Virus record (IMG/VR): IMGVR_UViG_3300008459_012190
Location: 1 to 53,516 of that record
Direction: 5' to 3' (one strand)
Source of the DNA: a virus
Length of the DNA: 53,516 bases
The position numbers were made by a program, and so were the translations under genes. The notes under the pieces are model-generated. The model worked only from the letters and a program-made list of their open reading frames with translations, did no database searches and was not told where the DNA came from. This document shows, piece by piece, positions 33,885 to 51,668 of the stretch; the stretch's first letter is position 1; each line of letters begins with the position of its first letter.

Positions 33885-34125
33885 GGTTTTCTTTCCTATT
33901 TTCAATTTGTTCCAATTTTTTTAGAAATTCTGGTATTTCTACCAATTTATCCACTAATAAACCTTGGGCAAAATTCATGGCTTGAAATTCAGATGGAACA
34001 CTAACCTCTGCTTGAAATCCTAAACATTCGATTTTGTAGACGTGAAAAACATCATCGATTTCTTCTGTAATTGTAGATTGTTCTAGTATTTTTTTTCGAA
34101 GATATTTAAAAACGTTCTTATTCAT
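33865..34125 (-). CDS. Small protein with tag-like N-terminus
   Basis: 86 residues starting MNKNVFKYLRKKILEQSTITEE, basic-aromatic then I-L-E-Q, a looser version of the tag (compare ILEQQ in the gene at 9444). The remaining 65 residues contain a VPSEFQAMNFAQ segment. A very similar pattern, MPSEFDGQGF, occurs in the tagged protein at 34988-35335. The two may be distant paralogues. Function unknown. It starts 4 bases inside the HNH gene's end (ATGA overlap). Confidence 0.55.
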   Translation of the reverse strand: MNKNVFKYLRKKILEQSTITEEIDDVFHVYKIECLGFQAEVSVPSEFQAMNFAQGLLVDKLVEIPEFLKKLEQIENRKENLKSLLD

Positions 34126-34595
34126 ATAAAGATATATTTTTTATTTTTATATGTACCATTTTTCAATCTTAGATAAGTGTAGAAATCAGAATTTCCACGC
34201 TCGTTATTACAATCAAGACAGCAAGTGATTAGATTTACTTGACAATTGTTACCACCTTTTGAAATTGGTATAATGTGGTCAACAGTTATATTTGTTTCGG
34301 TCAGAGATTGTCTGCAAAAAATGCATTTTGGATTTTTAGATTCCTCCAAGAATTCTTTAGCGAAACCAGTGGTTCTTCTTTTAACGTTTTTTCCGTTCCA
34401 TTTCAGTCCGATAATTACAATATTTTTATAAATCTTATATTTTTTTCTAAAAATTGTGCAACTTATGTAGTTCGGATTTAGAAAAATAATAAATTTAATT
34501 AAATATTTCCATTTACAATAAAGTTTTAAATCAACAAATATGAAATGTTCATGTTTGTTTTTATATAGTTGGTGTAGTATTTTTAATGTTGACAC
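34122..34595 (-). CDS. HNH endonuclease
   Basis: 157 residues with a C-terminal HNH/zinc module: CIFCRQSL, then VDHIIPISKGG with the catalytic His pair, LITCCLDCNNERG. This is the standard HNH layout with four zinc Cys (C-x2-C ... C-x2-C). The N-terminal 70 residues are basic and hydrophobic and may include a spurious extension; the true start could be further in. HNH enzymes in phages are often free-standing homing endonucleases. Its closeness to the interrupted polymerase gene (about 2.9 kb) and to the intron-bearing tRNA makes it a candidate homing enzyme for one of them, which is speculation. Confidence 0.75.
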   Translation of the reverse strand: MSTLKILHQLYKNKHEHFIFVDLKLYCKWKYLIKFIIFLNPNYISCTIFRKKYKIYKNIVIIGLKWNGKNVKRRTTGFAKEFLEESKNPKCIFCRQSLTETNITVDHIIPISKGGNNCQVNLITCCLDCNNERGNSDFYTYLRLKNGTYKNKKYIFI

Positions 34596-36469: not shown

Positions 36470-37700
36470 TTAAAATCCTGAGAAAATGTCCAACACAACA
36501 CTCAATCTTTTAGTTATTAATGGTAATCCTAAAGGCTCAATAATAGAATTGATTGGTGATAGAATACATTTCTCAAACTGAGTATCTAGGTCAATTTCTG
36601 GAGCCATCTCAATAGGATATGAACCTCGGATAAAAGCAAATATGTCATTCTGTGAAGTATTTTTACAATAATAATATTTAATCTTATCACCAGATTTTAT
36701 GAATTCATATTTTGTTTGTAAATTCTTATTCTTATGAAGTAGATGGTTATGGTAAGCAGAAGCCTTTACGGCAAAGTGTGCACCAGATACAAATTCGAGT
36801 TTATTTTTGTCATTCAAAACTTTTTCCTCGTATTTGGAACAAGATGATTGCATACATATTTCATCTATTCTATCAGGCACACAAAGGTCAAACTCTTTTT
36901 TAAGATTTTTAACTAACTTCAAGAGTTCCTTGATATTGAATGTATCGGGATGTTCAAACAAATATTTTACAATACCAAGAATTTTATCCCTCGCAAAAAG
37001 TGGTGTTGATGACCTTACAAGTTCTACTCCTTTTGGGAAAATATAATTCAATCTATCGTAAGGAATTCCATCTTCATAAACAATGTGCTGAATGTATTTC
37101 TTCTTAGCAATTGATATGATTGATTCGGAAATTCTTTCAAGTTCAAAGTCTTGTTTGTTTTCAACACCATAAGTTGCTGCGTGTTCGTCTAAGCATTTCT
37201 TGAAATATCCGGCGTATCTATGTTTGTCTAGTGCGTGAATAAATTCAAGTTCATCTTTATAAACATGTCTCCATTCACAATGATCCATTGCTGGTTTGAA
37301 CGATACAAATAGTGAATCAGTATCTGCATAAATAGAAACTTCTTCACCCTTTGGTATTGGTGTTACATTTTTTAGATTCATTGATTCGTGCAATTCTGTA
37401 TCTAAATGCCATTGCTCATACCAATAGTCCTCGTTTACCTTATTCATAGTTTGGGTGAGGTTACGACCTTCTGCGGTGATTGTGCCGGCTACGTAGTTAT
37501 TGAATAGGATGAAATAGGGTGCTGCGAATGCTCCGTATGACCCATTTAAGACAAGTTTTAGTCATTTCCCCCCACCGATTACTCAGTGGGGGCTAAAAAA
37601 GCGCGAGCTGGAGGGCATTGTAGTATTCTACCTCCCTTTTCAGCTCGCTTGCTTTATTTTTGAGTGAATTAATTTTTTCTAATTTTTGTTCTTTAGTCAT
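36470..37700 (-). CDS. C-terminal part of family B DNA polymerase, interrupted by a 40-base element
   Basis: Reading starts at ATG 37700 and gives 34 residues (to Q31-L-A-L34 of EYYNALQLAL), then a TTT codon and TAG stop. 40 bases later the frame resumes with KLVLNGSYGAF, the polymerase motif B, and runs to 36470. The joined product would be 396 residues: motif B, then motif C YADTDS, then KKKY and the thumb with VELVRSSTP, as in the last part of T4 gp43 (898 residues). Exonuclease domain and motif A are not present, so the polymerase is split with its N-terminal half encoded elsewhere. The frame between the element and ATG 37447 is open but has no start codon, so translation must come from upstream. 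See the bypass element. Confidence 0.8.
37559..37598 (-). other. Candidate translational bypassing element (40 bases, gene 60-like)
   Basis: Between codon CTT (Leu34, 37599-37601) and codon AAA (motif B Lys, 37556-37558) lie 40 bases: TTT, TAG, a 10-bp stem with a GUAA tetraloop (37569-37578 paired with 37583-37592), GGAAA, TGA and CTA. The last triplet CTA matches the CTT before the gap in its first two bases, like the take-off and landing codons of T4 gene 60. No frameshift can cross it, because TAG and TGA block both relevant frames. Confidence 0.75.
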
Positions 37701-37726: not shown

Positions 37727-39067
37727 TTATACTCCAAAATAATTAAAAGGTGTTAACTCTTTTAACTCTTTTTTCAACTCCTCACTCACATCCAATTTAT
37801 CAATAAACTTCCAAATATCTTCCTTACTGATATTTTCTTTACCCCTTGTAAGTCCTTTCAATACTTCATATGGATTTTTAAATCCTTCTCTTCTTAAAAT
37901 GGTTTGAATACCCTCTGAAACTATAGCCCAATTAGATTCCAAATCTTTATCAATCTTTTCTTTATTAATAACTAATTTATTAATTCCCTTTTTGATTGAA
38001 TTTATACTTATTTGAATATGTGCCATTGGAACCCCAACATTTCTTAGAACAGTTGAATCCGTTAAATCCCTTTGAAGTCTTGATATAGGTAACTTTTCTG
38101 ATAAGTGACTTAATATTGAGTTAGCCATTCCCAAATTACCTTCAGCATTTTCAAAATCAATTGGATTTACTTTATGTGGCATTACGGAAGAACCAACCTC
38201 TCCAAGTTTTGTTACTTGTATAAAATAATCCATTGAAATATACTGCCAAATATCTTTACAAAAATCTAATAATATAGTGTTTATTCTTCTTAGGTTATCA
38301 AAAAAGGCACATAAGTTATCATAGTGTTCAATTTGAGTTGTATATTGATATCTTTTTAAGCCAAATTTTGATAAAAATTCATCTGAAAACCTTTTCCAAT
38401 CTACATTTGGGTAAGAAACCTTATGTGCGTTGAAGTTACCAACTGCACCACCGAACTTACCATAAAACTTCAAGTCCTTAATCATTGAAATTTGATTTTG
38501 CAATCTTTCAACAAAAACCATTATCTCTTTGCTCATCTTGGTAGGAGAAGCTGGCTGACCATGTGTCCTTGATAACATTACTATATCACCACAAGATTCT
38601 GACAAGTCAATCAATTTATCAACCAATCTATCCATTTCAACCAAATAAATATTTTCAAACCATCTTTTTATTGAAAGTGGTATGGCAGTATTATTAATAT
38701 CTTGTGATGTAAGTCCGAAATGGATAAATTCTTTCAAATGGGATAAACCAAGACTTGATATTTTTTCTTTGATAAAGTATTCCAAAGCTTTTACATCGTG
38801 TTTAACAGTACTTTCCACTGTTTTTAATGTAAAACAATCTTCTTGGCTAAAATTCTGATGTAAAGTTCTTAGTTTCATTATGGTTACATCATCTAATTCT
38901 TCGTCTGTTATGATTTTCTTCTCAATTAGAGAAATAAAATATTCAACTTCTACATAAATTCTCCATTTATTTAGTGCATATTCAGAAAAGTAAGGAGACA
39001 AGTTCTTTACTTGGTCTCTGTAACGACCATCTATGGGATTTATTGAGGTTATTTCGTTTAAATACAT
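37727..39067 (-). CDS. purB: Adenylosuccinate lyase
   Basis: 446 residues from ATG 39067, which lies 1 base after the clamp's stop; a longer start at 39097 would overlap the clamp. The product opens with NPIDGRY, like E. coli PurB (456 residues), and has H169 in SRTHGQPASPT (catalytic region) and the fumarase/aspartase-superfamily loop GSSVMPHKVNP (292-302, with the catalytic Ser). It splits adenylosuccinate to AMP and fumarate, and SAICAR to AICAR. In this phage it sits in a replication block, suggesting boosted purine supply or a deoxy-substrate variant. Confidence 0.9.
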   Translation of the reverse strand: MYLNEITSINPIDGRYRDQVKNLSPYFSEYALNKWRIYVEVEYFISLIEKKIITDEELDDVTIMKLRTLHQNFSQEDCFTLKTVESTVKHDVKALEYFIKEKISSLGLSHLKEFIHFGLTSQDINNTAIPLSIKRWFENIYLVEMDRLVDKLIDLSESCGDIVMLSRTHGQPASPTKMSKEIMVFVERLQNQISMIKDLKFYGKFGGAVGNFNAHKVSYPNVDWKRFSDEFLSKFGLKRYQYTTQIEHYDNLCAFFDNLRRINTILLDFCKDIWQYISMDYFIQVTKLGEVGSSVMPHKVNPIDFENAEGNLGMANSILSHLSEKLPISRLQRDLTDSTVLRNVGVPMAHIQISINSIKKGINKLVINKEKIDKDLESNWAIVSEGIQTILRREGFKNPYEVLKGLTRGKENISKEDIWKFIDKLDVSEELKKELKELTPFNYFGV

Positions 39068-39068
39068 A

Positions 39069-39851
39069 TTAGTCCTCGTTTGTGAAATCTTGTTCAAATG
39101 ATAACATTAGGTTGGAATCTTTATCTTTAACTAAAATAAAATTATCAAAGATATAAAAGTTTATAAATTCATCATCGTCATTAATATTAGATAGATATTT
39201 TTTACTGAATATGATGTTAGCATTATTTGTTTTGATTTCGTCTACCTCCAATTCCCATTTTGAAACTTCATTGAATGTGACTTTACTATTATCAACAGTT
39301 ATATTTAGTGTTTTATCTTCATTGTTGATTGATGATAATTTTTTTATGTTGCTGAAATCTTGGTTTGTGACTTTAAAGTTCCATTTAGCGTTTTTGGGGT
39401 TAAGTCTAGCATTTAATGTAGACTTTTGTAAATCTTTAATTCTATATTGTTCACCACCAATCGTAGATATTTTCAATTTATCATTTGTGAATTGAGCTGT
39501 TCTGATGTGCATTACAGTATCATCATCTGGCAAAGGTTTAAAAACTAAATCTAATTTGATTACCTTTTCGGGATTAAAGAATTTAAGATTTTTAGCGAAT
39601 TTATTAGCTGACGTGATGATAAAGTCAAAAGTTTCATCTTTGGTAAAATTATCAATAAAATCTTTAGTTTTTAATGTATATCCTTTGAAAGCGGTGATTG
39701 ATGTTTCATTACTAATAACTGAATACATAAGTATTTCATCTTGTTCAATTTTCATTTTTACCACATCTTCAATAGAAGTTAGATCGCTGAATTTAGTTAG
39801 AAATTCAGGGAAATTAGATTGGTTGAATTTTAGAGAGAGCTTCTGAGACAT
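39069..39851 (-). CDS. Sliding clamp (gp45-like)
   Basis: 260 residues with a pattern that fits a two-domain-per-subunit clamp of the T4 gp45/PCNA type: an N-terminal domain (about 1-120) and a C-terminal one with a long helix region around DFSNIKKLSS (about 165-175), a WELEVDE strand, an ANIIFSKKYLSNI segment, and final strands INFYIFDNFILVKDKDS and MLSFEQDF. T4 gp45 is 228 residues. The gp45-like assignment rests on these patterns, gene order (next to polymerase) and size, not on a firm motif. It is transcribed ahead of purB with a 1-base gap. Confidence 0.6.
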   Translation of the reverse strand: MSQKLSLKFNQSNFPEFLTKFSDLTSIEDVVKMKIEQDEILMYSVISNETSITAFKGYTLKTKDFIDNFTKDETFDFIITSANKFAKNLKFFNPEKVIKLDLVFKPLPDDDTVMHIRTAQFTNDKLKISTIGGEQYRIKDLQKSTLNARLNPKNAKWNFKVTNQDFSNIKKLSSINNEDKTLNITVDNSKVTFNEVSKWELEVDEIKTNNANIIFSKKYLSNINDDDEFINFYIFDNFILVKDKDSNLMLSFEQDFTNED

Positions 39852-40355: not shown

Positions 40356-43300
40356 ATGGCGATAAATCAAATTCTAGGTGTACCAGATTGGCAAAAATTA
40401 TCAACATTCACGGGTTCACTTCCTGCTCCAGGATTCAGTCAAATATATCCAGGTCCCAATAAATATTGGTATGCGTATGATGGTACATACGTAAAAAGAT
40501 TTGAGTATGGTATTCAATACGGTGCTGGTCTAAGTACTGTATTCGCGGCTACAGAATCTTTTGTAGACAAAAGAATAGATGTAAATATTGGATCGGGTCT
40601 TTCATATTCTTATGAGGGAGAAGGTTCTGCAATCTTTGTTACTGGATTAACCAGTGGTAATTTAAATATCATAGGTTCATTTACTCAAGGATATGTATTA
40701 TCTCTAAGTAGTACCGCATCTGGTCAATTTCAATGGATAGCTGCAGGTTCTGCTAGTGTACAAGGTACATCAGGAAGTATTGCTAAATTTACTTCTAATA
40801 GTTCTGTAGGAGACTCTGCAATGATTGAGGTAATCACCGGAACTCCTAGTTTTGATAGAAGATCAGTTTACATTGGAATGCCACAACCAACTAATCTTGG
40901 TGGTAGTTCTACAGTAAGATCTTCTGTTGCATTCGGAGCTTCGCCAAGTATTTTGGTTGATAAGCAGATTTTTCTAGGGGATAATCCAAACAGATATATT
41001 GGATTTACAAATTCCAACCAGGTTGAAATTAGTACTACGGGTGAATTTATAGTAGCTGATTATCCACTTTTTACAGGCACAACTTCAAAGGCTAGATTTA
41101 TAGGTGCTGTAACTGATACATCGACCTTTTCAAATTTAGGTTACGATAGGAATATTGATTTTCTATCTGGATTAGTTAGTGTTAATCAGAGACCGGGATA
41201 TCCCGCACTTTTTGTAAACACAACTTCTCCCGATTTAGTGGGAGTTTCACCAAGTAACATGGTAAGAACTCCGACTTTCAGTTTTGATTCTTCCAACCCG
41301 TTTTTGGGAAGTATCACTGGAACATTTGGGGTTGCTCTTGGTTTATCAGGTGGTGGTATACAAATAAAAGATGGTACAGAGGGACAATATAAAGTTTTAG
41401 TTTCTTCAACCAATCAAGGACACGGTATTTGGGCTACGATGGTTGGTATACAAGGTCTTCATAGTTTGACCTCAAGTTTGTCAGGTGATAATCTTAATGG
41501 GAATTTTTTATCTTCAAATTATGTAGCTAGAGTTCCTATTTATCAGAAACCTGGTTCATTCGAACTTGGTGATAGGTTTTATGGTCCGACATCTGCTTGG
41601 GGAACATTCAGTCGTAGTTTCACATATTCTATATTGATATCTGAACAAAATTTTGCTTATGAAAGGAACTGGGACGGTGTAACGAGATCTGGTCCTTTTG
41701 ATGTAAATTTCATAGTTCCGAATATTGGTGCGACTTATGCTCAATTTATGATGAATAGGAGTAACCAAGAGTATTATGGTAGTTTATATCTTTACGATGA
41801 AGGTGAAAAATTTGGTGTAGTTAGAGCTGGTGGGTTAAATTCGAGAACAGGTATTTTTGCGAAAGATATTTCTAACACAGTACTTGGGCCTGGTTCCAAC
41901 GGATCATATGCGATTAAACCTGGAAATAGAAATAACTCTATAGTCTATTTTTTAAATTCTGATAGAACTTCTGCAGTTGATCCAACAAATAAATTAACAA
42001 TCCAAGCTTGGAATTTTCAAATATCGACTGGTTTAGCTGCTCGTGGATTTACCTTCTCGAATTCGAATTTTACTATAGATACAGGATCTTATCCTGGATA
42101 TGGTTATTGGCCCAGGTCTGTATACGAAGAGAAGTTGATTTGGGCATCGCCAACAGATTGGCAGACAGGTTTAACTATATCAGCAACTCAAGGCCAACCA
42201 GACCGATTTAGTTCCGTAACTTCATTGGGTGGTGGACTTTTACCACCAGCACCACGAACATTTGCAATTAATCCCAACAATGGTCTAGATACACAGGTCG
42301 TCAGAAGGAGAACAAATTTACTTTATAATCAACCTGAGAGGGATAGATTTAACAACATCCTTTATAATTTTGAAGTATCAAGAATGGGTTATACGGGATC
42401 CTTAACACAATCTTCTACTTCATTGGACACAATACTTGGACAATGGATTAGAATTGAAAGTGGGGATTTTAATGGAAGTATGACACAATCCACCGGATTA
42501 TTTGTAACTCCTCAATGGGGTAGTTTTATTAACAGTGGTGTTTTGGGAATGACACTATCTCGTCAAGTGGGTATTCAAGTTACACAGCAAGTAGGTTATA
42601 CAGAAAGAGTTCCCCTTGGAACTGTTCAAGAAGCCTATGATTTTATGTCTGGTAGGATCGGAAACGGTAATGTGATTAGTAATATACAAAGTCATGTTGG
42701 TTTCTTTGCTCAGTCTAAAATGAGGGGTCGTCAATGGGATCCATCAGGTAGAAGAACATTTGACTATGGTGGCAGACTTGATAATACAGTTTCATTCAGA
42801 ACCACTCCAACACAATGGCCGACATACTCTGTTTATAAAGATAAACCATGGGCTTTTTACGCTGAAAGAGATAAATCTAATCTTGGTGGTGGTTTACTAA
42901 TTGATATGGGTGCTACTTTTGGTACACCACTAAGAGCATTCTTAGAAATTGAAGCTGTCACAAGATCGGTGGCGGATGGTACATCACCATTTACAGTTTC
43001 TGCAACGATATCTGTGTTTCAAAGAGATGGTTCATATGTAACTTTTTCACATGCTGGTTCACCAAAATCGGTATTTACTGGCACAATCAGCGGATTTACA
43101 CTATCTGTTGCTTCTGTGATTTCAGGTCTTGGAAATATAGTACCGCCAAGTGGTTTAACTGGATCTGGTGTCCTATCAAATACTAGAATAATTGCGTTTG
43201 GTACAGGTGTTGGTGGTGTTGGTACGTATACATTAGATCAATCTCAAACTGTTGGTGTAGCGGTACAAATGACATCCACTAAAGATAATTCATATAGTAC

Positions 43301-46300
43301 ATATGTTGAAACATATCCACAAATGTTGTTAAGACCAGGTGTTACTCCTTCATATCAATCTGACGGTAGTTTGTGGTATACACCAGGATATCTAGCGTTT
43401 GTTGATGGTGGACAAGTATTCAATCTTTTGGGTACAAAAAGTGCAGCTTCATTGAATAGTGGTCTCACGGGTAATGGAGTACTTGGATATGTTCCTGTTT
43501 GGACAGGTGGTTCAAGTTTAAGAGGAACAAGTTCGATATACATTTCTGATAATGGGGGTGGAAACGTTGGTATAAACTTTTGTTCAAGTTATCCAAACCT
43601 ACCACTTCAGGTTGGAACTACTTCAGCAAGTTGTAATGTTTCAATCGGTGTCTCTGGATCGATTTTGTATCAAGATGGTAGTCATGGTACTACCGGTTCT
43701 GTGATGGTTGCTGATGGGACTGGTAAATTATCTTTACTTGCTCTACCAAAATCAAATCAAGTGGTCTTTAGTGACTTTACTGGCACAAGTTTAACATCTT
43801 CTGTAAATTTCCAATTTATAAATGCTAATAGTGTAACAGCGTCTGCAATTGTTGCGGGTCGTTCAAATACAATACTGGATCCAACAATTGATTCGATAGT
43901 TGTTGGGGGATTTTGTAATAGATTAGGTGTTTTTGGCACAACCTCAATGACACATTGTATAAGTAATTCATCGATAATTGGTGGATGTTGTAATACAGTT
44001 GGTGGTACTTGTTCAAGTTTTGCAAATATTATAGGTGGTAGGTGTAATAGAATTGAAAATTTTAATTTTCGTAATAGCATCTTTGGTTCAGATTTAAGCA
44101 CTATAACAGGTGACGGTATATGTGTTTTAAGAAGTGTTATTGTCGGTGGTGCTCAAAACTTGATTTGTAAAGGTAACGAATCTACTATAATAGGTGGTGG
44201 TTGTAATACCATATGGCATTGTATATCTGGTCAAAATGGAACATTTAAATCCACAATTTTGGGTGGTTGTTGTAATTCAATTAATACCTACACCGCCCAA
44301 TCAAGTATAGTTGGTGGATGTAAGAATCTTATAACAAACAGATCTTGTAACAGTATCGTACTTGGTGGTGTGTGTAATACCATCTGTACATCTACTTGGG
44401 GTGGTGACTCTGGTGGTAATGATAATGCAATTTTGGGTGGTGCTACAAACTCTATAGAATCTTATAAATCTCATTACGGTGCTTTTGGTAATTATGGAAA
44501 TTGTTCATCTATAATTATAGGTGGTGGTTTAAATAAAATCGGTTGTAATTTAGTGGCGAATGCTACTTGTCCAGGAGTCGTTAGATCAACAATATTGGGT
44601 GGGCAACAAAACTTTATGTTCTGTAATTCAGCAAATTCGAATATTATTGGTGGTCGACTTAACCAACTGATTGGTTCGACAAATTCTGCTATCATAGGAG
44701 CGCTTTCCGCGACTGTAAGTTGTTCCAGAAACTCTGTCATAATTGGTGGAGTAGGATTGTCATTATCAAGTTGTGATAATATGGTTTATGTACCATCTTT
44801 GATGATAAGCACAATATCACACGATTCTAGTGCAACTTGTTTCTTAGTTTGGGATTTTGCAACAAAGACCGTCCGTGGTAGGACCGGAGGTGCTGGTGGT
44901 GGAACCAAAGGTGACAAGGGTGACCAAGGTCCTATAGGACCCGCCGGTGCTGATGGTACTGGAGCTGAGTGGTATTGGGAGGGAATCTGGTCAAATTCTT
45001 GTGTCTACGTTGTTGGTAGTATTGTCACTTATCAAGGTCAGACTTGGTATTCATGCACTGGTCAATCAAATATAACACCTGTACAAGGTCCAACTTGGTC
45101 TCTGATAGCTGCTAAAGGAGCTACAGGTGCTACAGGTATATCTTCAATTGGAACATTCAATCAAAATGTATCTTATGCAAATGGTGCAAATCTATCAGCA
45201 ACCGGTGTCTTAACTTTGGGTGCTGCTACTATAACAAATCCTGGTCTAATTCACACCGGATCTCAAACTTTTTCTGGTGATAAGCAATTCAGAGGTGATG
45301 TACTTATAGGTCCAACTAATACAAACGGCCTTTTTCTATTTGGTGAAGATGGTATAAATTATTCTGGGTTTCTAGGACCAACAACGACATCTTCTAATTT
45401 AATCTACAGATTACCACCACTAGCTCCATTAGAAAGGTATTTGAAGACTTGTACTAGTTTAGATGGTGTTATAGGATTAATGTGGGCTACTGCATCAGGT
45501 GGTGGAGCTAGTAGTATCGTTATATCAACTAAAGAAGTGGTTTTTGGTGATGGTAGTGGTGTGACTTCAGATTCTAATTTTTGTTTTGATCCATCAAACT
45601 GTGATTTCATTGTTTCATCAACACCTACAAATAATTCATCATCAGGAATGAACGCTATAGTAGGGGGTAGTGGTCATATTTTGACATCTGGTTTAAGATC
45701 CGCAATGATTGCTGGTCAAGATAACCAAATTGTTGGGTCGACTTGTTCAATTATAATTGGATCTAGAGCTTCTTGTATATGTAGAACTGGTGCAGGTGGG
45801 GAATTCGTATCAGGATTGATTATTGGTGGGGACAATAATAGGATAATTGGTTCAGCATCTGATTTTTCTACTATAATAAATGGTAATAATCAATGTATAT
45901 GTGGATCGGGAAATAATAATACTACTATACTCGGTGGTATAGGCAACTGTATATTTTTGTGTTCTCAAAACTCCACAATTATTGGGGGGTCTAACAACGC
46001 CATACAATTTTCCTGTTGTTCTTCAATTATATCATCAGCTCAATCTCAGATTATTTCTGATACTAATATACCTGGAAGTGAAACTACCAAATCCGCTTTA
46101 ATAATTGGTGGTTTGACAAATAGAATAGTTGGTTCAGCAAGTGACTTTACAACCATATTGAATGGTAATAACCAATGCATTTGTGGACCAAACAGTAACA
46201 ACGCTGGTATTGTTGGTGGTAGTGGTAACCTTATTGGTACATCATCGAATAATTCATTTATAATCGGTGGAGACAACAACAAAATCGAAGGTGCTAGTAG

Positions 46301-49300
46301 GGCAGCTATTATAGGTGGTACTAATTTGAGGTTGAATTCAAATCACAACAACACAGTTTTTGTTGAGAGGTTTATGATTGATAAAGTTGATGTGAATGCT
46401 ACCGGTCAGTGTGTTATGGTATGGAATTCAAGTGATAGGAAAGTTTACTACCGTTTGGCTTCATCTTTAGGACAAGCAGGACCAGGCGCTTCGGCTCCTG
46501 CTGATAGGGTACCCTTTGGTTCACAAGATGGTACTACATTGGTTAACTCACCGGATTTCAAATTTTTTGTAAACGGTACTAGTTTATTAGCTGCTTCTTC
46601 GAGTACAATTGAAAGTTTCAGCTTTAGTAATGCAATCATATCTGGTTTTGGTCAAACAATTTCGAATGCAACAGCTTCTGTAATTTTTGGAGGACAAAAT
46701 AATATAATTTGTTCAAATAGTTGCTTTAGTTCGATTATTGGTGGTTCACTTAACACGATTACATTTTCAACCACATCTGGTATTTTCCAGAGTATTGATT
46801 CTCGAATATTCTCATCTGACAATTCAGTCATACTTGGGGGTTGTGTAAATCTTATCGCTTCAAGTGGTAGTTTAGCGTGTGGTGCTGATTGTAGTATGAT
46901 AATCGGTGGAACTTCTAACAGCATTTGGACAAACGGTATTTACGCTGATCCAAATATGACTTTCGGTGCTAATTCCGCTGTCAATTTTAGAAGTAAAAGA
47001 GCTTTTATTATTGGTGGAAATCAAAATACTATATCTCAGTCATGTAACTCTAAAATTCTCTTTTCAGATTCTAGTGTGATAACTAAAGGGTCTGAAAATA
47101 GTCTAATATTCGGTGGATGTGGACATTGTATAGTTTGTCACTCTCAACGTAATCAGATTATTGGTGGTAACTTTAATACAATAGGAAATACCTTTAGTAG
47201 AACCGGAGGTCCAGGTCAATTGAGTAATTCTGGATCTATAATTTTTGGTGGTGATGTTAATGTTATTGGTGGTGGATCTTATGCAGATAGAAATACTATA
47301 TTTGGTGGTCGATTCAATTGTATAGGTTTTTATGCTTTTGACGATACTATTATAAGATCATTCAGAAGTAAAATATTTGGTAAAGGAAATGATAGGATTA
47401 TCATAGGTTCTATTAATTCTTGTATATCAGCTAATAGTTTTGTTAAAGGAAATGATACCAATAGTAGTAAAAACAGTCTACTATTAGGAAAAAATAATAG
47501 AATTTCAGGAAGGTTTGGAGATAAATTTGGTACTGATAACTTAGTCATTGGTGGTGCAAATAATAGAATTGGTTATAATAAATTACAACCTTACACACCC
47601 ACCGGTTTCTCATTAGAGCCAGGACCATCTTGTCGTTCAATAATTTCATTTGGTGAATACAATGTCATCAATTGCCAAGTATATGACTCGAATATAATCG
47701 GTTCTAGATCTACTTGTATGAAAACTTCTCGTGAGTCTTCGATCATATCCTCCTCTAATGCTGTGATGTATAACTCTGTTGGGTCATCTATCATCGGAGC
47801 TTTTGGTGGTGTTTCTATTACTCCGGTAAATACTGGAAATTTTGAAAATGGTAGATTTTGTCAAAACTTTACATCAGTTAATAATAGGCAAATTGCACCA
47901 CGTACTGATGTTTTTATACCAGCAGGATCACTCACCATAACTGTATCGAATGTTGTAACTCTAGATGGAAACAGTGCTCAAAACACCACAGCTATATGTT
48001 ATAAGGGTACTTGTTTTCTTTCAGTTGGTATGGAAGTGCATGGTCCAAACATTCCAGATGGGACTATAATAACAAATATTTTACCTGATCTCAAGACATT
48101 TGAAATAAATAAACCAGTTCTATTTGGTGGGGTTGCTTCATGCACTGAGTTAAATTTCATCAATCGTCACGAAGAACAATTTATTTGTGGTAATTCAACT
48201 TGTATTTCGAGAAACTCCACAATTCTTGGTGGGGTCACAAATAGTATATTTATATCTAGTTGTTCATCGGTATTGGTTTCAGACAATAGTGGAATAACAA
48301 ACTCCAACACATCAACCTTATTGGGTGGTCTGAATAATTGTATAACTACATCAAATAATTCAATAATTATCGGTGGTGGAACAAATAGCATTTGTGGTTC
48401 AAGGTCATCTGGAATTATAATCTCCCAAAATTCAGGTATAACGGCATCATCGTTCAATTCTATGATTATTGATAGTACGAATAGTAGTATTTGTAACTCG
48501 TCAAATAATTCAATGATTGTTGGAGGTGCTACAAATAGTATTTGTACTTCTAAGTTCTCTAGCTTGGTATCATCACAATGTTCTGGTATTACTAATTCGA
48601 ATTCCTCCACAATCATTGGGGGTTGTTTTAATGATATCTGTAATTCTTCTAATTCTACAGTAATTGGTGGTTGTTTCAATACTGTACAATTCAGTTCGAT
48701 AAATTCCACAATTATTGGGGGTGTTTGTCATATTATGAGTACAAGTTCTTGCAGATCGAGTATGATTGGTGGGTACTGTAATACAGTTCAATTTGGTTCT
48801 TATGATTCTACCATTTTGGGTGGTATGTGTAATAATATGTCATCGGTTGTTGACCTTGGAGTGGCGAGAATACGAAGGTCATCAATTTTGGGTGGGCATT
48901 GTAACAGTATGATATGTAGTTCTTGCGAATCTGTAATCATAGCTGGTTGTGGTTTAAGTATGAGTAACTCTTGTAATTCCGCAATCATTGGTGGACAAGG
49001 GTTGACTATGAGTGGTATTTGTAATACAGTTTACTTACCATCATTGATGTTATTCACAGCATCACTATCAACCGCACCAACAGCTTCGGAAACATTGATT
49101 TGGGATCCAAATACAAAACGTGTTAATTCAATTCCAAACCCATTCTCACTAACTCCAAATTTAGGTCAGAATAGTTTAACATATTCTTTCTATGGTTCGA
49201 TTTTACCTGGATACGCTTCACAATCAACCGCTGGAAATCAATTGGGCACAACCCAGTCTCCTTGGAAGTCTATCAATGCGTTCAGAATACACGTGAAAGA

Positions 49301-51668
49301 AATGTATGTTGGGCCAGCATCAATTTACCTTGGAGACCTGAAGCTTAGTCAAGAAGGTTCTCAATTGAAGATCGAAGACACTACAATTGGTTCAACCGTA
49401 TCTCCGATTATAATTGGTAGCGGCACGGGACCACAAGGATTTACAGGTCCACAAGGAGCACCTAGTGTTACCAACTTAATAGTTTCTATTGACTCTAGTA
49501 CATTTTCTACAACAATTACACACTCCTTTGGAAGCTATCCATTGGTACAAATTATTGATGGTAATGGATACACAATCCAATCCTCATCATACTCAATACT
49601 TCATAGCAGTACTAATTCATATACTGTAACATTCAATGGTACATACTCTGGATATCTAGTAACAGGTGGTGGTTTGACTGGTCCACAAGGTAATCAAGGA
49701 CTAAAGGGTACAACAGGTACTCAGGGTTTCACTGGTCCACAGGGTTTCCAAGGTACACAAGGGTTCCAAGGTAACACTGGTTCGATTGGTTCTCAGGGTA
49801 TTACTGGACCTAGAGGTTTCACTGGTACCCAAGGTTTCACTGGACCAACTGGTATACAAGGTAGGACTGGTCCTCAAGGTTTCCAAGGTGTTACTGGTCC
49901 TGCTGGTGGTCCTCAAGGTTTCCAAGGTCCTCAAGGTGACCAAGGTCCTCGAGGTTTCGATGGTGTACAAGGAACCACAGGTGATTTAGGAACACAAGGT
50001 ATAACAGGTCCACAAGGTGACCAAGGATATCAAGGTCCTAGTGGACCTGCTGGTGGTCCACAAGGTGTTACTGGTCTACAAGGCGCTACTGGTTCACAGG
50101 GTGTTACTGGTCCTTATGGACCAGGTGGAAGCGCACAATTGTATGGAGATATTCTAAATCCATTTTCGGTTTATTTTTCACCAACCGCTAGTCCTGACCC
50201 ATTGACTTCTGGTGTTTCTTATCTAGAAATATCCTCAGCAACTGCAACTGTCGGTGTTACCGGTTCCTTGAAAGTACATGAATATGATATCAATGGTCAT
50301 TTATTAAATCATTATTGGGATACACTACTCAATAGTTCGCTTGTAAACTCCAATAACATCATTTATTTGACGGGTTACTACAATTTCTCTTTGATAGTCA
50401 CAAATGCAACTTATTCAAGTAATTTTTATAAGTTTGATATTTCTGTACTAAGTAGTAATGTCAATTCCTTTATGATTGGTGATCCTACTGAAACAATTTT
50501 CTATCAAATATCTTCACCACAAACTTACTTATCAAGAAATGATAGTGTAAGTGGTGTCACAGTTTCAGTTATAACTCATAGTAGTAATAGATATCCAATT
50601 GTTCAGACTATCGATAATTCTGGTCAAGTTATTATTCCATATAGTGTTGAACACTTATCAGCTCAAGTATTTAAGGTTCTATTCAGTTCAACATTTAGTG
50701 GTACGATAATTACTGGAGGTGCTGCGGGTCCACAAGGTGGTACTGGTTCAATGGGAATTGCAGGCATCACTGGTTCTCAGGGTTCTACCGGATTTCAAGG
50801 TTATCAAGGATTTCAAGGTGCAACTGGTCCACAAGGACCTGCAACCGACCCTATAATTACTTCAAATGAGGTCGTATTTGGTATTGGAACTGGTTTATCA
50901 TCAAGTTTGAATTTCACATTCGAAAAAACAAATTCATTAATATCTGTTGGTCCGTCAAATAGTATATTCTCACTCAATTATAACTCCGCTATAATTGGTG
51001 GTAATACCAATGATATTCTAGCAAACGCTTGTAATTCAGTTATCATAGGTGGTTTTACCAATCAGATTTTAGAATCTAATCATTCGACAATTATCGGTGG
51101 ATGTGTAAACTCAATTCACTATAGTAGTTGTCAGAACTCGATAGTTGGTGGTGGGAATAATACGATTTGTTCTTACATTACTCGAAGCTTAATTTTGGGT
51201 GGAGTAAACAACGTTATATCTTACTGTGGTGACAATTCCACTATTGTTGGTGGTTACGGTAACTGTATAGTTAGTGATGATACTAATCCAAATTCAGACT
51301 CGACAATACTAGGTGGACGTGAAAATAAAATCACGAATGCTACACAAAGTAGTTTCTCTAACTTTATTATCGGTGGTAATTGTAATTGTTTATTCAATAA
51401 TTCACATAGTGGTATTATTGGTGGTTGTAACAATACTTTAGTTTCCTCCACAAATTCAGTTATAATTGGCGGTGAAGGATTAAGTTTCAATAACAAGACA
51501 AACACTGTTATAATACCAAGTCTTATGGTGGCATCATCATCTGTATCAAGGTCTCATATTAATTTGGTTGCTGGAGCATCTCCTAGTGTTCCGGTTGATG
51601 GTGATCTTTGGTATGATGGTAGTCAATTATACTTCCAAAAGGGTGGAACAACTGTACAATTAACTTAA
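40356..51668 (+). CDS. Giant modular tail fibre/adhesin (3770 aa)
   Basis: 3770 residues in one frame. The first about 1160 residues form fibre domains, including [17 protein letters not shown], a frequent start of Bacteroidota-phage fibre segments. Then follow blocks of short beta-roll repeats of the form S-x-I-I-G-G-x-x-N-x-I (about 1164-1482, 1765-2007, 2092-2486, 2620-2897 and 3543-3722), similar in style to YadA-type head repeats. Most blocks end in a cap (V-Y-V/L-P-S-L-M or variant). Collagen-like Gly-x-y stretches (about 1516-1537, 3108-3260, 3458-3500) join them, and a CBM-like domain follows the first (about 1538-1586). The repeats are unusually Cys-rich (for example GGCCN). It ends in a [10 protein letters not shown] strand; no intramolecular chaperone domain is seen. 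Confidence 0.8.
43845..44800 (+). repeat. Beta-roll repeat block 1 (S-x-IIGG-x-x-N)
   Basis: Tandem coding repeats of roughly 14-25 residues with the core I-I/V-G-G-x-x-N-x-I, Cys-rich, ended by a VYVPSLM cap. Confidence 0.75.
49424..50133 (+). repeat. Collagen-like Gly-x-y region
   Basis: A short stretch (49424-49465) and a long one (49677-50133) encode Gly-Pro/Phe/Thr-Gln-type triplets such as [16 protein letters not shown]. This rod-like triple-helix-type linker joins beta-roll blocks 4 and 5, with a small beta domain between the two stretches. Confidence 0.85.

Follow-up and report, generated by a model that had tools for sequence, protein, structure and literature searches.

Motif B of a split family B DNA polymerase (PolB), in the gene for its C-terminal half on the minus strand of a viral contig, is broken by 40 bases that contain in-frame stops, which raises the question of how a complete polymerase can be made from this gene. 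The stretch analyzed here, called the window, comprises 53,516 nucleotides (positions 1 to 53,516 of IMG/VR record IMGVR_UViG_3300008459_012190). A preliminary description had proposed that ribosomes bypass the 40 bases, as they do in gene 60 of phage T4.

The interrupted motif B of the window polymerase

The features of the locus are as follows (window coordinates).

37727..39085, minus strand: purB (adenylosuccinate lyase), directly upstream of polB; profile match
37599..37700, minus strand: ORF1, first 34 codons of the PolB C-half (MTKEQKLEKINSLKNKASELKREVEYYNALQLAL), the last being the proposed take-off codon; start and length are the same in relatives with or without insert
37598..37655, minus strand: 5' stem-loop in which GCGAGCUG (37648-37641) pairs with CAGCUCGC (37610-37603); predicted from folding and from covariation in relatives with insertion site A/B
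37599..37601, minus strand: proposed take-off codon CTT (Leu34), from comparison with the inserts of relatives
37559..37598, minus strand: untranslated gap of 40 nt, the proposed bypassed insert; absent from 23 distinct relatives
37593..37595, minus strand: in-frame stop TAG, one sense codon past the take-off codon; same spacing in 24 of 31 inserts
37569..37592, minus strand: gap hairpin with a 10-bp stem (37592-37583 / 37578-37569) and a GUAA loop (37582-37579); covariation
37559..37561, minus strand: proposed landing codon CTA (Leu), the final gap triplet, from comparison with the inserts of relatives
36470..37558, minus strand: ORF2, remainder of the PolB C-half, 362 aa from the motif B Lys; PF00136 (E 4e-15), phrog_1918, phrog_262

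ORF1 runs from the ATG at 37700 to CTT at 37601-37599 (...YYNALQLAL) and is followed by TTT and TAG. The frame is back at AAA 37558 with KLVLNGSYGAF, which restores motif B exactly, and ORF2 also contains the DTDS of motif C. The end of ORF1, the 40-base gap and the exact resumption at KLVLNGSYG had been described before and are present in the sequence, as are the 10-bp stem with its GUAA loop, the TAG and the TGA (37564-37562), which immediately precedes CTA 37561-37559. The likening to gene 60 holds for the match between take-off and landing codons (CTT/CTA) and for the presence of a hairpin but not for the stop, which does not follow immediately since TTT intervenes, nor for the take-off codon, which belongs to the upstream stem and not to the hairpin behind it.

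The gap contains stops in all three frames and, as had been argued, frameshifting is excluded because both other frames are closed within it. A scan for ATG, GTG and TTG bore out that the resumed frame holds no start before 37447, the first one lying 37 codons past the resume point and beyond Tyr-Gly; a second cistron with its own start, of the IC-UTS type, was therefore rejected. An intein or in-frame insertion was discarded on account of the in-frame stops and of insert lengths in relatives that span all three classes modulo 3. A self-splicing group I or II intron was likewise rejected, given that an Rfam search of the window gave no match and that the inserts measure 36-48 nt. A transcription terminator is unlikely, as no T-run follows the hairpin on either strand.

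The gap hairpin begins 6 nt past the take-off codon. The 5' stem is extended by AAAGC (37655-37651) and GCUUU (37602-37598), which has the take-off codon CUU inside, and reaches a z of -6.6 against synonymous resampling. Taken together, the 102 nt from 37660 to 37559 fold into two adjacent stems with -48 kcal/mol, compared with -24.9 ± 3.3 for shuffled sequences (z -7.0, 0/200). This fold, and the recurrence of the element in 31 distinct versions in relatives, show that it is more than chance. A covariance model matches the window gap with E 7.8e-11, its sole clear match within the window. Elsewhere, a single 3770-aa ORF without annotation occupies 40356-51668 on the plus strand.

Inserts, candidate landing codons and upstream stems in relatives

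IMG/VR was scanned with two alignment-based scans and one single-protein scan, which yielded 31 distinct insert-bearing and 23 distinct insert-free genes; no relative was found among the genome contigs searched. The inserts are 36-48 nt long, with all three length classes modulo 3 represented, and occupy six sites within 27 nt of motif B (LA/L, AL/K, KLV/L, NG/S, GS/Y and SY/G, the slash marking the insertion point). Nearly all of them form a stem of 9-12 bp with a loop of 3-6 nt, beginning 5-6 nt past the last codon before the gap. The hairpin shows a covariation of 0.396 versus 0.157 in shuffled alignments (0/500 as high), with two-sided changes in 7 of 10 pairs. Identical inserts were recovered from several independent metagenomes (e.g., L049/L050/L051/L064) and are thus not an assembly artifact. 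In 20 of the 31 insert-bearing genes, the resumed frame lacks a start codon up to and including the motif B Lys, and re-initiation therefore cannot be general; L003 and a few others have a TTG near the resume point.

The covariance model was also run over 20 whole records and 28 homing-endonuclease loci, where it gave no convincing element outside polB at a limited sensitivity (the real inserts in L004 and L009 score only E 0.06 and 0.37, respectively). Within this search, each genome has one insert, in one gene only. Scanning viral contigs for the pattern TTTTARCCCCC...GGGGG returned mostly unrelated hairpins among the matches listed, together with one new polB insert (L166, a copy of the L006 type) and L092, which is the L026 polB locus.

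At five of the six sites, the final gap triplet encodes the same amino acid as the codon before the gap; this holds for 23 of 23 inserts, the codon pairs being GCT/GCT or GCA, CTT or CTG/CTA, GTT/GTT, GGT/GGT and TCT/TCA. The background of synonymous matches inside the inserts is 6.5%, and a match in five of six site classes would arise by chance with p of about 7e-6. At SY/G, no matching landing codon is present in any of the 8 distinct inserts. Other take-off points for this Tyr/Gly class (Ala, Phe, Asn) were rejected, as they would delete the conserved Tyr-Gly or precede codons that are still conserved. The class is at odds with codon-matched landing; Herr et al. reportedly found in 2004 that minimal pairing is enough for landing in gene 60. 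A stop directly follows the take-off codon in 3 of the 31 inserts, and four have no stop near it; at take-off, the A site would in most cases hold a sense codon instead of a stop. Matching triplets seemed to be avoided earlier in the 3' spacer (P=0.04 after shuffling), which is too little for a claim.

A second structure lies upstream of the gap. Upstream coding RNA pairs with the 22 nt just ahead of the gap better than synonymous resamplings do in 29 of the 31 insert-bearing genes (p≤0.01, mean z -5.7), and the pairing stops 0-3 nt from where the take-off codon ends. Insert-free genes, tested at all six positions, pass in 1 of 138 cases. Genes with later sites show the stem signal at their own site and mostly a weak one at A/B; in L040, the overlap of its stem arms with A/B makes the signal strong at both. 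Among site A/B genes, pairing of the 5' stem reaches 87.6%, and 6 of its 13 pairs have two-sided changes; the same columns in insert-free genes are 44.9% paired and show no covariation. The stem thus moves with the insertion site at near-fixed spacing to the codon before the gap, and selection for dealing with the gap is the best reading of this pattern.

The 5' stem is weak in L210 and absent from L222. The L222 insert has a 16-bp hairpin, its locus has neither 5' stem nor endonuclease, and the flanks resemble those of the insert-free L224. The one pass in 138 belongs to L207, which is insert-free, yet retains an 8-bp remnant of the 5' stem and is sister to the insert-bearing L208/L212, possibly reflecting a precise loss of the insert.

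Selection, mobility and the associated homing endonuclease

The exonuclease half of the polymerase is a single ORF of ~500 aa on the same contig, 41-172 kb from the C-half, in 6 of 10 relative contigs searched. Ten relative records of up to 597 kb contain only the split PolB and no family A polymerase (PolA) or PolIII alpha, a result that contradicts the redundant second polymerase considered at the outset. The median dN/dS after the gap is 0.16 for insert-bearing and 0.22 for insert-free pairs, ratios that place the gene under purifying selection. As the records searched gave no other polymerase, the product is probably needed whole. Relatives of the window polymerase include deposited uncultured phage genomes of 634-735 kb.

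Further interruptions of the C-half were seen at motif C. In L010, L026, L028, L040, L208, L212 and L218, the gene is interrupted again at this motif (YxDTDS), ~250 nt after motif B, in a manner resembling split inteins and in several cases with an ORF of ~370 aa between the halves. An intein-like sequence is found at the same DTDS site in L007, L013 and L015.

On a tree of 54 C-halves, the presence or absence of the insert requires 15 changes and the insertion-site state 24, near the 27 obtained for shuffled labels. The post-gap proteins of L209 and L210 are identical while their insert sites differ. The members of the pairs L210/L211 and window/L004 resemble each other past the gap but not upstream of the gene, where they are unrelated. 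Similarly, L220 carries an insert and an endonuclease gene and L224 neither, with mostly well conserved flanks.

A homing-endonuclease gene is located directly upstream of polB, in divergent orientation, at 19 of 30 insert-bearing versus 1 of 23 insert-free loci (p=8e-6, with shared ancestry ignored). The encoded proteins match the PHROG 'homing endonuclease' and DUF7487 and have an HNH-like C-terminus; in L008 the protein is of the GIY-YIG type. The window has no upstream endonuclease, and its near relative L004 carries a homing-endonuclease gene between purB and polB. Near codon 12, the C-half has a Ser (often in GAGTCA, Glu-Ser) in 26 of 31 insert-bearing and 0 of 23 insert-free genes, the pattern to be expected of a 5' end that moves together with the insert; this Ser would be either a hitch-hiker of the cassette or part of the signal itself. 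Comparison of the loci shows the element to be mobile and associated with the endonuclease; it would travel as a cassette consisting of the endonuclease gene, the 5' end of polB with its matching stem, and the insert. The insert probably destroys the target of the endonuclease and may thereby confer immunity.

A separate HNH endonuclease gene, ~2 kb downstream of polB, lies at 34122-34595 of the window, and its cluster has members in the vicinity of insert-bearing as well as insert-free polB genes.

How the gap may be read, and comparison with known systems

The best explanation for these loci, and in our judgment a likely one, is programmed translational bypassing by a mobile cassette. The gene 60-like reading first proposed for the window gains strong support from the covariation of the hairpin, the 5' stem that tracks the insertion site, the 23 of 23 synonymous codons at five sites, the purifying selection, the lack of a second polymerase in the records searched and the homing-endonuclease anatomy that parallels T4 mobA/gene 60. 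The split of the polymerase, the upstream stem ending on the take-off codon, the mobility and the homing-endonuclease neighbor in relatives go beyond that first reading. The anatomy of the element, its conservation, covariation, selection, mobility and endonuclease association are shown by comparing the sequences of relatives; we infer the part of the ribosome and the order of events. Ribosomes would translate the 34 codons of the C-half up to CUU and may pause there. The hairpin 5-6 nt downstream, aided by the stop codon, would stall decoding, and the Leu-tRNA would release CUU. The upstream stem could fully re-pair with the take-off codon only after this codon has left the P site, and by closing behind the ribosome it would push the latter forward across the 40 nt. 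The peptidyl-tRNA would then re-pair at CUA and translation would restart at AAA, with the motif B helix restored. If the two parts are joined, the junction peptide would be EVEYYNALQLALK, its last K encoded after the gap; if translation is terminated, EVEYYNALQLALF would be expected.

The main rival, which we regard as improbable, is excision at the RNA level. The 36-48-nt hairpin would be a mini-intron removed by a ribozyme-like structure or by a phage or host nuclease and an RNA ligase, with the 5' stem and hairpin marking the 5' splice site, a mechanism that has not been described. Both structures do lie at the 5' border in all site classes, the codon-matched borders could be leftovers of a target duplication, and the Tyr/Gly class without a matching landing codon would be accounted for. 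However, excision does not require a synonymous end codon, yet one is found in all 23 inserts at five sites, often with the third base changed (CTT/CTA, TCT/TCA, GCT/GCA), nor does it require a stop codon after the 5' border. The lack of an Rfam match in the window also speaks against it, and we know of no self-splicing RNA as short as 36-48 nt.

A dead or dying gene, already named as an alternative in the preliminary description, is very unlikely. Selfish hairpins would have inactivated the polymerase, which would be supplied by another copy, coinfecting phages or the host, in keeping with the in-frame stops and with the many gains or losses of inserts. This is contradicted by the dN/dS of 0.16 after the gap and by the co-evolved 5' stem, which is selected at synonymous sites; moreover, the long contigs searched contain no second polymerase, and the insert-bearing lineages persist with 31 distinct covarying inserts. 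Equally unlikely is a polymerase of three pieces, in which re-initiation after the hairpin would yield parts that assemble like gp43A/gp43B of an Aeromonas phage. The gene has already been split once, at the start of the C-half, and the TTG codons of L003 and a few others would suit such a scheme, but 20 of the 31 genes, the window included, have no ATG, GTG or TTG up to and including the motif B Lys, the catalytic helix of motif B would be cut in two, and the codon matching and the site-tracking 5' stem would be left unexplained. Least probable of all is that most phage genomes in the population lack the insert through excision at the DNA level, or that it is a sequencing or assembly artifact, since, despite near-identical genes with and without insert (L220/L222 vs. 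L224), identical inserts recur in independent metagenomes, each of the different inserts has a 5' stem that fits it, and occupied and empty genes differ also in their 5' coding ends and neighbors.

T4 gene 60 has been the only proven case of programmed bypassing in phages. The polB inserts would add a natural series of at least 31 variants that cover six sites and six take-off amino acids; the gene is single-copy, and its insert-free versions serve as matched controls. Such a series makes it possible to test which signals are needed, whether a stop is required, the codon matching at landing, and the origin and tolerance of the inserts. The anatomy of the cassette repeats the origin proposed for gene 60, an insert shielding the target of a homing endonuclease, and would generalize this single-case proposal. 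Gene callers will truncate these polymerases.

In the current model of gene 60, a 5' stem-loop forms to the rear of the ribosome and thereby draws the ribosome away from the take-off codon (PMC5009743, PMC11194080). Sliding is processive over ≤56 nt (PMC11194080), and the gaps of 36-48 nt fall within this limit. In T4, mobA lies between 39 and 60, a 50-nt gap is found early in 60, and bypassing in this gene seems to have no counterpart among T4-related phages (PMC3014915). Reviews name T4 gene 60 and Magnusiomyces mitochondria as the established cases (PMC5009743). In agreement with the preliminary description, which knew of no bypass in a DNA polymerase, full-text searches of open-licence papers turned up neither a DNA polymerase nor a huge phage with reported bypassing, although an unseen report is possible.

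Like T4 gene 60, the polB loci have an early gap in a split replication gene (50 vs. 36-48 nt; codon 46 vs. codons 33-42), a proposed take-off/landing re-pairing with a stop near take-off, and a 5' stem-loop plus a hairpin at the take-off site (PMC5009743, PMC11194080). Most insert-bearing loci also share with mobA/gene 60 the HNH homing endonuclease upstream (PMC3014915). Gene 60 has a nascent-peptide stimulator as well; none was recognized in the polB sequences, in which the Ser near codon 12 sets insert-bearing genes apart. In contrast, the gap interrupts motif B of PolB and not a topoisomerase, the take-off codons specify Ala, Leu, Val, Gly, Ser and Tyr instead of Gly (GGA), and the landing codon is often synonymous rather than identical. 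Whereas the take-off stem-loop of gene 60 contains the take-off codon and the stop, the polB take-off codon forms the foot of the 5' stem, 5-6 nt ahead of the hairpin, with the stop usually being the second codon. Finally, gene 60 is single, while the polB inserts are many relocating copies.

The byp elements of Magnusiomyces capitatus mitochondria, which Nosek is said to have described as mobile in 2015, offer a second comparison. They too are short inserts present in many copies, are bypassed at translation and have imperfect codon matching in several cases, but they are mitochondrial and are said to work independently of mRNA context (PMC5009743). The polB inserts differ in having a dedicated upstream stem for each insertion site and, within the scope of our search, one insert per genome in one gene only. 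The third comparison is with the IC-UTS in the split gene 43 of Aeromonas phages 44RR and 25, where a split PolB is likewise combined with untranslated sequence and, in phage 25, with a nearby homing endonuclease (PMC2988022). There, two cistrons give two polypeptides, whereas the polB part after the gap has no start of its own and would have to be joined to the part before it.
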